From positions 1 to 36,652 of the forward strand of contig NZ_JAPYVU010000014.1 of assembly GCF_028276765.1 (NCBI RefSeq): 36,652 nt of DNA. Reading direction: 5' to 3'. Numbering within the stretch: the stretch's first letter is position 1; each line of letters begins with the position of its first letter. The notes beneath the pieces are model-generated. The model did no database searches. It was not told the origin of the DNA and was given only the letters and a program-made list of their open reading frames with translations. The stretch is from Sulfurihydrogenibium sp. Its GTDB lineage: Bacteria; Aquificota; Aquificia; Aquificales; Hydrogenothermaceae. Positions 10,993-32,955 of this stretch are shown here, in pieces. Both the position numbers and the translations under genes were made by a program.

Positions 10993-11142
10993 ACCTTGGG
11001 TGGGAAATTAGCAGTTTTTATAGAATTTAAAAAGGAGATCCCTCGGACTAAAGTCCTCAGAACGATGACAAAGAAATAAAAATCCTGTCATTCTGCAGCC
11101 GACGAAGAATCTCATGCTTTTGTTGAATTTCTTACCCGACGT
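10993..11142 (+). repeat. Type 2 miniature element
   Basis: A 150-bp element starting ACCTTGGGTGGGAAATTA and ending TGAATTTCTTACCCGACGT, whose reverse complement is ACGTCGGGTAAGAAATTC. The inner part holds the same two palindromes as type 1 elements but in the opposite order: GAGATCC.TCGG first, TGTCATTCTGCAGCCG last. No target duplication is visible in the flanks. It occupies most of the 310-base gap between the divergent response regulator and HerA genes. Confidence 0.8.
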
Positions 11143-12767: not shown

Positions 12768-13424
12768 ATGTTTAGAGATAGAGAAGAAGCGGGAAGATTA
12801 CTTGGCGAGCTTTTAAAGAAATACGACTTTGATAAGGAAAATACTGTTATTTTAGCCATTCCAAGAGGAGGCGTTCCGGTTGCTTATGAAGTTTCTAAAA
12901 AGCTTAGGATACCATTTTCGTTGGTCATTACTAAGAAATTAGCTCCTCTTCGTGAGCCTGAAGCAGCATTTGGAGCAATTGCACCAGACGCAAGTCAAGT
13001 AATAGATGAAGTCTATATGAAATATATGGGAGTATCCTCTTCAGAGCTTGAAATTGTAAGAGAAAATGCAGTAAAAGAGATAAAAAACAGAATTATAAAA
13101 TATCTAAACGAAAAAGAGTCAAGCTTAGAAGGTAAAGATGTTATTATAATTGATGATGGAATAGCTACAGGATATACAGCAATAGCTGCAGCGATGTACG
13201 TAAAAAATAAAGGTGCAAAAAATGTATACCTTGCTATTCCAGTATGTCCGACAGATAGCATTCCGAGAGTAAAGAAATATTTTGATGATGTATTTTGCTA
13301 TGAAAAATCAGATTCTTCCTTTTTTGCAGTAGGTACGTTTTATGAAGATTTCCATCAAGTAAGCGACCAAGAGATGTTTTTTATCATTGAAGAAGCCAAA
13401 AAGAATGGATTATTTTATACTTAA
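12768..13424 (+). CDS. Phosphoribosyltransferase-domain protein
   Basis: The 218-residue protein has a type I PRTase fold. VILAIPRGGVPVA (27-39) provides the early loop and VIIIDDGIATGYTA (125-138) the PRPP-binding motif. It belongs to the COG1926-like group found alone or fused to hydrolases; substrate is unknown. Its ATG lies one base after the HerA stop, so the two are translationally coupled. The same pairing in other genomes, if found, would suggest a shared function. The last codons, including the stop, are part of a 28-bp sequence repeated on the far side of the type 2 element at 13427, so the element arrived at the exact 3' end without harming the gene. Confidence 0.8.
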   Translation: MFRDREEAGRLLGELLKKYDFDKENTVILAIPRGGVPVAYEVSKKLRIPFSLVITKKLAPLREPEAAFGAIAPDASQVIDEVYMKYMGVSSSELEIVRENAVKEIKNRIIKYLNEKESSLEGKDVIIIDDGIATGYTAIAAAMYVKNKGAKNVYLAIPVCPTDSIPRVKKYFDDVFCYEKSDSSFFAVGTFYEDFHQVSDQEMFFIIEEAKKNGLFYT

Positions 13425-13426
13425 AT

Positions 13427-13603
13427 ACTTTTGGTGAGAAATTAGTAATTTTTATACAATTTAAAAAGGAGATCCTTCGGACTTACGTCCTTAGGATGAC
13501 AGAGAAAGGGAAAGCATGTTAACAATTACCTTATTTGTCATTCTGCAGCCGGCGAAGAATCTCATACTTTTATTGAATATCTTACCTGACGTTTAACAGG
13601 CAT
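13427..13603 (+). repeat. Type 2 miniature element flanked by a 28-bp direct repeat
   Basis: The element begins ACTTTTGGTGAGAAATTA and has a right inverted end at 13581-13592 (CTTACCTGACGT), with 11 further bases before the repeat. The flanking sequence at 13405-13432 (starting ATGGATTATTTTATACTTAA) recurs at 13604-13631 with one mismatch; the first 21 bases are identical. The inner palindromes match those of the other type 2 copies (GGAGATCCTTCGG; TGTCATTCTGCAGCCGG). It separates the phosphoribosyltransferase gene from the haem lipoprotein gene. Confidence 0.8.
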
Positions 13604-13646
13604 ATGGATTATTTTATACTTAAAAACTTTTAAAGGAGGTGGAAAG

Positions 13647-14720: not shown

Positions 14721-14754
14721 ACTTAAGTGAGAAATTAGCGGTTTTTATAAAATT
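14721..14754 (+). repeat. Type 2 element left-end fragment
   Basis: ACTTAAGTGAGAAATTAGCG continuing to AAAATT matches the first 34 bases of the type 2 elements. It then stops abruptly where the IS5-like remnant begins, so the insertion sequence appears to have entered or replaced the rest of the element. Confidence 0.6.
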
Positions 14755-15499
14755 GCTTTGTCCAATAATAGAAAATCATAGAATAGCCTATTTTTTCTGC
14801 ATACGTTTTATTGCTTTTCTTTAATTAATTATACACCACGCTAATAATTATTCATTGTTAAAAACCTATTAATAAGCATAGCTTTTAAAAATATCTCGGT
14901 TTTGATGTTCTCTACAAACCTCCGTTGAATTTGGTATAATTCCAGCAATAGCACCTATTATTTTGATAAAATCATAGAAATCTCGCGCATCATATCCTTT
15001 ATCTGCAAGTACTTTAAAAATTCTTTTACCTTTTTCTTTCAAATTTCTAAATGCATTTTCGAGGCTGCTCTAAACATCCACATAGTCATTCTGAGCGAAG
15101 CGAAGAAGCTCCTATTTTTCTTTTCAAGTCAAAAATCAAAAGAGGAGATCCTTTGGCCTTACGTCACCAGGATGACACGGAAAGGTAAGCTTACGAGAAT
15201 TTTGGAACACCTTCAAGTTTATACCTGATGTTTTAAATACTTCTTTAATTTTAGACTCTAAGTTAGAAAATCTAGTTCTAAAGTTTGGAATTTTAACTCT
15301 GCACTAAGGATTTTAAGAGAATGGTAAAGTGTTTTCACTTAAAAATATATCCTCATCAATTATTATCTCTCCGCGCTTTACAAGTTGTTTATTATATTTT
15401 TTCCAGTTTCTTTTCATAAAAATCTCACCAATTTTTAAGTTTTTGGGTACAATTTTATATGATATTACAATTAAATTGTGAAAATTTTTGGACAGTCTC
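14755..15499 (-). mobile_element. Decayed IS5-like insertion sequence, interrupted by a type 1 element
   Basis: On the minus strand the left end reads GAGACTGTCCAAAAATTTTC (ends at 15499), and the other end is GCTTTGTCCAATAATAG (14755). Between them are pieces of a DDE transposase: MKRNWKKYNKQLVKRGEIII (from 15415), then KIPNFRTRFSNLESKIKEVF, TSGINLK, and, after the inserted repeat, FRNLKEKGKRIFKVLADKGY followed by DARDFYDFIK. The middle of the gene is missing and stops follow. VLADKGYDA is typical of the second catalytic region of IS5/IS4-type transposases. The family is tentative. The element is dead but shows which ends its transposase would have recognised. Confidence 0.7.
15061..15214 (-). 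repeat. Type 1 miniature element inside the IS5-like transposase remnant
   Basis: A 154-bp copy in reverse orientation: GAGGCTGCTCTAAACATCC at the left and, on the other strand, GAAGGTGTTCCAAAATTC at the right. Both inner palindromes are present (GTCATTCTGAGCGAAGCG; GGAGATCCTTTGGCCTTACG). It splits the transposase reading frame between TSGINLK and the FRNLKEKG segment. No clear target duplication remains. Confidence 0.8.
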
Positions 15500-15523
15500 A
15501 ATTATAATATTAATCTTATAATA

Positions 15524-15699
15524 CCTTGGGTGAGAAATTAGCGGTTTTTATAGAATTTTAAAAATGAGATCCTTCGGCCTTACGGCCTCAGGATGACAGG
15601 AAAAGGTTGATTGATAAGTGTTAAAAGAAGGATAACCTTATTTGTCATTCTGAGTGAAGCGAAGAATCTCATGTTTTTGTTGAATTTCTCACCCGACGT
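15524..15699 (+). repeat. Type 2 miniature element flanked by a perfect 29-bp direct repeat
   Basis: A 176-bp element from CCTTGGGTGAGAAATTAGCG to TTTCTCACCCGACGT, with both palindromes (GAGATCCTTCGGCCTTACGG; TGTCATTCTGAGTGAAGCG). The 29 bases immediately left (15495-15523, starting GTCTCAATTATAATATTAAT) are repeated exactly immediately right (15700-15728). The left copy includes the last 5 bases of the IS5-like element, so insertion came after that element. This is the clearest example of the long duplication. Confidence 0.9.
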
Positions 15700-15747
15700 G
15701 TCTCAATTATAATATTAATCTTATAATAAATCAAAAACTCTATCCCT

Positions 15748-32204: not shown

Positions 32205-32955
32205 ACGCTTAGGGTGAGAAATTACATCTAAAAAACTCCTTGGCGGTAGTTAAAATTGTAATAGCAAAAAATTCCACCAAGGAAGTAAAAATGCAAAACT
32301 CTAATCTTTATTTTACACTATTTCAAAAAATCTATGAGCATTTAACTAAGAGTGTTCCAAAATTCTTGTAAACCTACCTTTCCGTGTCATCCTGAGGACG
32401 AAGTCCGAAGGATCTCTTTTTTGATTTTTGATCTTGAAAAGAAAAATAGGAGATTCTTCGCTTCGCTCAGAATGACAATTTTGATTTTTGGAACAGCCTC
32501 GCATCTAACTATACTTTTAAACATCCAACCAAAAAAGAAAGCAGGTAGACCATCTAAGGTATCTGATTTACAACTTGCAGCTTTATATATCACATCCTAC
32601 ATTTCAAACACTCCTATTCTTACACTTTCCAGATTTCTAATTTGTCCTTCTATTCAATCTTGGCATCTGTTTAGAAAATCAAAATCAGAGAGAGTTTACA
32701 AAATCCTTAGAGAATATTGGCTAAGAAGAGTCACGATTTATTCTATGGACTTTTAGTTATGGTGGTTTGTGATGAAGACGGTATGGTTTATGATATATGG
32801 TTTCATCCAGCAAGCTATCATGAAGTAAGGTTGTTAAGAATGAGACACAAAATGAGTAAATGGTTTAGATTCTTGTTGCTTATCTATATGTATATGCTGT
32901 TGGTTATAGCTTTTTAAGAAAAAGTAGATTATGGAAGTAATTTCTTGCCCAAGGT
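32205..32955 (+). mobile_element. Decayed IS982-like insertion sequence interrupted by a type 1 element
   Basis: The ends are ACGCTTAGGGTGAGAAATTA (32205) and, on the minus strand, ACCTTGGGCAAGAAATTAC (from 32955), which are the type 2 miniature-element ends. A transposase frame starts at 32291 (MQNSNLYFTLFQKIYEHLTK), is split by the repeat at 32350-32500, and resumes with KKKAGRPSKVSDLQLAALYI. After a shift it has FYGLLVMVVCDEDGMVYDIW and FHPASYHEVRLLRM, which resemble the catalytic core of IS982 transposases. About a third of the gene is missing and stops are present, so it is dead. Confidence 0.75.
32350..32500 (+). repeat. Type 1 miniature element inside the IS982-like transposase
   Basis: A 151-bp copy from GAGTGTTCCAAAATTCTTG to GATTTTTGGAACAGCCTC, nearly identical to the 7939-8091 copy. 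The flanks GCATTTAACTA (32338-32348) and GCATCTAACTA (32501-32511) are an 11-bp target duplication with one later change. It splits the transposase frame after EHLTK. Confidence 0.85.

Follow-up and report, generated by a model that had tools for sequence, protein, structure and literature searches.

Long AT-rich target-site duplications around a MITE-like element and its presumed parent, a compact and distantly IS982-like insertion sequence of Sulfurihydrogenibium

Introduction

One of the characters that define insertion sequence (IS) families is the length of the duplication that they generate, commonly taken to be fixed by the geometry of the transposase. For the families that make long duplications, we know of no accepted mechanism. 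In the IS982 family, the published duplications are 2-10 bp (PMC7335449). Longer ones are described for a subgroup of IS1202, with 16-28 bp (PMC10132070) or 24-29 bp (PMC10045372), and for IS1634/IS1549, whose direct repeats are long and variable (8-514 bp) and for which, according to a 2008 review, no mechanism had been proposed (PMC2266710).

Here, we analysed a stretch of 36,652 nucleotides from Sulfurihydrogenibium sp. (contig NZ_JAPYVU010000014.1, positions 1 to 36,652; hereafter the window). A first-pass annotation of its letters had described a perfect 29-bp direct repeat, flush with both ends of a 176-bp "type 2" element, and had considered it unusual for insertion of the IS982 type. 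We propose, with a probability of about 0.85, that this repeat was made when the element was inserted by the trans-acting transposase of an IS982-like IS of ~0.9 kb with the same ends.

Results

The repeat of the window and the element that it flanks

Bases 15495-15523 recur at 15700-15728 with exact identity over 29 bp. In the whole window, these are the sequence's two only matches at up to three mismatches, and 100 shuffles returned none. By alignment with relatives, the left inverted repeat ACCTTGGGTGAGAAATT begins at the A at 15523 and the right end AATTTCTCACCCGACGT stops at 15699. This gives an element of 177 bp and, in the strict sense, a duplication of 28 bp (GTCTCAATTATAATATTAATCTTATAAT). 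The additional A at 15728 matches the first base of the element by chance, so that one A is ambiguous, or shared. The perfect repeat noticed first is therefore real, with both lengths shifted by one base. No transposase gene is found in the element, whose interior (15523..15699) carries a CATTCTGAGCGAAG / CCTTCGGCCTTACGGCC repeat. It has the properties of a MITE, being short, non-coding, present in ~40 copies of ~177 bp and bounded by the terminal repeats of an autonomous element.

Table 1. Features of the window, with positions counted from its first letter.
Feature	Position	Strand	Remark
Target-site duplication, left copy	15495..15522		28 bp; 29 bp with the shared A at 15523
Target-site duplication, right copy	15700..15727		28 bp
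Non-autonomous MITE-like element, 177 bp	15523..15699		AC...GT ends; one of ~40 genome copies
Left terminal inverted repeat ACCTTGGGTGAGAAATT	15523..15539	+	
Right terminal inverted repeat ACGTCGGGTGAGAAATT	15683..15699	-	read on the reverse strand from 15699
Degraded unrelated older IS	14759..15499		left of the element; ends known to within a few bases
Presumed parent IS, degraded and interrupted copy	32207..32955	+	IS982-like transposase fragments, same-type ends
Second element copy	13427..13592		21-bp perfect direct repeat 13405-13425 / 13604-13624
Third element copy, 150 bp	10993..11142		direct repeat not recognisable

The older IS to the left of the element has the left end GCTTTGTCCAA and the right end TTTTTGGACA(GTCTC), against GCTTTGTCCAA / TTTTTGGACAATATC in its sister copies. 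The left repeat copy probably begins with the final bases of this IS. This had been proposed from the letters of the window and is plausible, but the correspondence is not exact: sister copies finish with ...GGACAATATC and the window has ...GGACAGTCTC. The older IS seems to have inserted beside another element copy, or into its left part (14721-14754), and many contigs of the assembly also end in copies of this older IS. Around the second element copy, the right copy of the direct repeat starts 11 bp past the end of the element, and we read the pair as a decayed duplication of ~32 bp. At the ends of the degraded copy of the presumed parent IS, no recognisable repeat remains. This old copy is interrupted by a repeat of ~150 bp (32352-32501, GAGTGTTCC...GGAACAGCCTC, with CATTCTGAGCGAAGCGAAGAATCTC inside), which has an apparent direct repeat of ~9 bp on both sides and shares its core sequence with the 177-bp element.

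Element copies and parent IS in the same genome

The genome of the window is a 1.75-Mb draft in 84 contigs with ~40 element copies. Counting from the AC...GT ends, we found that 11 of 31 full-ended copies have strong direct repeats of 25-38 bp flush with their ends, and one additional copy (L024) has a 34-bp repeat with its left end off flush by 7 bases. When left flanks were compared with the right flanks of other copies, none of 930 scores was comparable. For 18 of the 31 copies the score was below 15 or there was no repeat, some of them being 85-89% identical to the query, and a 13-mer test within the flanks examined found no repeats above 60 bp around the repeat-less copies.

An IS with the terminal sequence of the element ends many contigs, its left and right ends gathering at contig edges in the manner expected of a repeated IS that has collapsed in assembly; intact copies of this presumed parent are absent from the assembly. 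By pairing the flanks of left-end and right-end contigs, we recovered 13 IS insertions, each between perfect repeats of 24-34 bp that are flush with its ends, against 0 comparable scores for the 587 non-pairs among 600 comparisons (top score 7). The near-identical ends suggest that the parent IS has been active in the source strain. Because the element and this IS share both their ends and the length of their duplications, the related transposase probably moves the element in trans.

Since contigs of the draft break at the parent IS, the repeats could in principle come from errors of assembly or consensus. However, the same pattern is found around copies inside contigs and in two relatives assembled as a single contig (G003 and G043, see below), which refutes an artefact for the family and makes it a negligible prospect altogether.

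Two family insertions on different contigs (L002 on C64 and L121 on C37 of the same genome) occupy an identical 30-bp sequence that precedes a start codon, and one of them adjoins a piece of the IS itself.

A compact transposase distantly related to IS982

Intact transposases were found in the sister IS of G003 (same genus; 278 aa from the first ATG) and of G043 (same order, other family; 282 aa), within an overall range of 278-297 aa. Their best NCBIfam match is IS982 (NF033520), with 48.2 bits for G003 and 28.4 bits for G043 where the cut-off is 130, and Pfam DDE_Tnp_1 matches one of the two. The transposase alignment shows conservation of VDGT, of GDKGY and of an E further downstream, which suggests a DDE triad. 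The AlphaFold model has a mean pLDDT of 65 and its top fold matches, Mos1 transposase structures, are not significant (E 0.11); given such a low-confidence model and match, the fold says little. No solved structure matching the transposase by sequence was found. Going by these matches, the enzyme is a distant IS982 relative lying far below the curated cut-off, and the "IS982-type" label of the first-pass annotation stands for a distant relationship only.

The transposase clade occurs in 35 of the 136 Aquificota genomes searched. All 25 loci from the named genome collection, scanned by two conserved peptide patterns only, belong to Aquificota, and a search of viral contigs and plasmids returned no relatives.

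Long duplications are the rule across the family

We tabulated 35 repeats, which measure 23-38 bp (mean 28.6) where none is expected by chance; one null comparison with a score of 24 proved to be the same insertion at two loci and not a chance repeat. Repeats of 23-38 bp flank the sister IS of G043, which has more than 20 copies, as well as that of G003. Others measure 32, 27 and 25 bp in G006, 27 bp in G083, a member of another genus, and ~25-32 bp around older copies in G004. The IS at locus L249 of S. yellowstonense SS-5 and at locus L193 of G005 have identical coordinates and ends. Flush duplications of 23-38 bp are thus the general pattern in the family, and the repeat of the window is in no way peculiar to that copy.

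Shorter duplications also exist. At L012 (C18:23238-23411 in the genome of the window), the duplication is ~11 bp, as verified against the unoccupied site in G005, and a few other copies have 12-14 bp, showing that a long duplication is not obligatory for the family. Many single-copy IS elsewhere have only AT/AT at their junctions. A comparison of repeat lengths around the type 2 copies had been suggested, uniformly short ones being what would count against a long duplication; the repeats of young copies are not uniformly short, although a few of ~11-12 bp exist.

Unoccupied sites carry one copy of the repeat

We joined the flanks of each insertion around one copy of its repeat and matched the product against the genus. 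For five insertions, unoccupied sites with one copy could be aligned in G004/G005 at 80-98% identity, the duplications being 33 bp (98%), 26 bp (96% and 95%), 31 bp (96%), 29 bp (98%) and 29 bp (80%). About three more (34, 25 and 30 bp) come from continuous search matches only. Three insertions lie within genes, whose reading frames run uninterrupted through the site once a single repeat copy is left in place. Since the unoccupied sites of relatives hold a single copy, the repeats are almost certainly target-site duplications.

The site of the window copy itself is rearranged beside the neighbouring gene in both close relatives, G004 having a fragment of another element and G005 the downstream flank only, and no relative searched carries both 29-bp copies there. 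Even so, we have very little doubt that the repeat of the window is one of the long target-site duplications of the family. The earlier proposal that the repeat arose with the insertion is supported.

That proposal had been accompanied by an alternative of replication-linked or recombination-based insertion. We considered a repeat that pre-existed or came from homologous recombination between copies or from exchange of flanks. Recombination between copies does occur, as indicated by some repeat-less G043 copies that have flanks in common (L218/L220 and L227/L228). However, it accounts for the loss of a repeat and not for its gain, and every insertion is flanked by a flush repeat unique to it, with a single copy at the unoccupied sites of relatives. 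This explanation thus fails for the family, and we consider it highly improbable.

Edges and base composition of the duplicated tract

Of the 35 tabulated duplications, 31 begin with RT (5' edge) and 33 finish with AY (3' edge), the background frequency of RT being 0.149. Each 3' end of the IS is therefore linked, on its own strand, to a dinucleotide 5'-RT. Moreover, the duplicated tracts are AT-rich, their G+C being 17% against 30% in adjoining stretches of the same length (Wilcoxon p = 7e-7 for the 35 duplications), and the difference holds in three subsets taken separately (p = 0.007, 0.0005 and 0.001). Windows of equal length bounded by RT..AY within 120 bp average 29% G+C, and none of 5000 random choices among them was as AT-rich as the observed tracts.

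To account for these features, we propose that the transposase of the ~0.9-kb IS982-like IS acts in trans on the ends of the 177-bp element. As a DDE enzyme, it would act on an AT-rich tract of ~2-4 helical turns, which would be melted or strongly distorted. One 3' end (...GT-3') would be joined to 5'-RT at one edge of this tract and the second 3' end to 5'-RT at the other edge, on the opposite strand, leaving long single-strand gaps for the host to fill. The melting step is a tentative one, to which we give slightly less than even odds. More speculative is the full version of the model, where the transposase opens the AT-rich tract, or finds one open, and the two ends are joined independently to the RTs at its edges, the length of the duplication being the size of the opened tract.

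Alternatively, the spacing could be dictated by how the transposase assembly is built, for instance if a multimer kept the two ends separated by 2-4 helical turns of bent duplex. The AT-richness also fits this, as bendability instead of melting. A nearer AY site, 5-12 bp from the first cut, is present and unused in 31 of the 35 sites, which points to a lower limit on spacing, sharp at 23 bp in the tabulated set and yet not absolute given the cases of ~11 bp and 12-14 bp. In addition, strong bending of the target is described for known transpososomes, and IS1202 members too give 24-29 bp (PMC10045372). In contrast, the lengths run continuously from 23 to 38 bp without obvious steps of 10-11 bp, unlike what a rigid assembly predicts. 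We give assembly geometry less than even odds, a rigid multi-turn assembly on a bent duplex being nearly as likely as a melted or distorted tract.

It is also conceivable that the host makes the openings, so that the transposase would use DNA that is single-stranded for a short time at promoters, R-loops or replication forks. In favour of this, inspection by eye, without a count, places many sites a short way upstream of genes that have ribosome-binding-site-like motifs. On the other hand, at least three insertions are within genes, and TATAAT-like motifs are not enriched in the duplicated tracts (33 of 35, against a shuffle mean of 30.5, with 73 of 500 shuffles reaching the observed value). 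The latter result led us to reject a TATAAT-like promoter box as the target, and we regard insertion into host-opened DNA as unlikely.

Discussion

The lineage described here, whose nearest described family is recorded with duplications of 2-10 bp, produces duplications of 23-38 bp in dozens of natural insertions, and for several of these the unoccupied site is known. The coincidence of a sharp AT-rich profile with the duplicated tract offers a concrete and testable idea for a compact transposase of fewer than 300 residues. If true, targeting of an opened tract would be a mode of target capture unlike that of typical DDE transposases, whose stagger is fixed at 2-10 bp, and possibly a general explanation for elements with long duplications. 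The short elements copy whole stretches from promoter to start codon, so that neighbouring genes could be affected, and tools limited to short duplications would miss such elements.

In the literature searched, we found no description of a compact IS982-like lineage with RT-edged, AT-rich long duplications, nor of a long-duplication family among the mobile elements of Sulfurihydrogenibium. Like bacterial MITEs, the 177-bp element is short, non-coding and multicopy and carries the terminal repeats of an autonomous IS; it differs from them by its unusually long duplication. With IS982, the parent lineage shares a putatively DDE-type transposase, a single gene, 5'-AC...GT-3' ends and an overall size of ~925-966 bp (964-966 bp in G003 and G043), within the 845-1282 bp and the one gene of ~208-326 aa that characterise the family. 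Compared with the end pattern 5'-AC(N)6T(N)5TT, the left inverted repeat has the AC and the T at position 9, but its TT is at 16-17 and not at 15-16. The lineage departs from IS982 by its matches of 28-48 bits where the cut-off is 130 and by its 23-38 bp duplications (35 tabulated) against 2-10 bp; the first-pass annotation thus rightly called its 29 bp unusual for an IS982-type insertion (PMC7335449).

The comparison previously drawn with IS1549 is apt, its repeats spanning 8-514 bp (PMC2266710). The IS1634 family is alike in its long and variable repeats, but it has IS of 1.5-2.0 kb, C-----YT ends and transposases among the largest, whereas the IS here are ~0.93-0.97 kb with AC ends. The IS1202 subgroup makes duplications of similar length, with a transposase of 441-457 aa (ISAjo2 members described), TG...CA ends and an IS of 1.3-1.7 kb or more; we found 278-297 aa, AC...GT ends and no sequence match to it. 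In parabasalids, the DDE transposons IS481EU have duplications of ~25 bp among other lengths, but these fall into discrete classes of ~4, 15 and 25 bp, the ends are TGT...ACA and the hosts are eukaryotic (PMC10045372). Taken together, IS1202, IS1634/IS1549 and IS481EU indicate that long duplications are already known in kind, while size, ends or transposase place the element described here outside all three.
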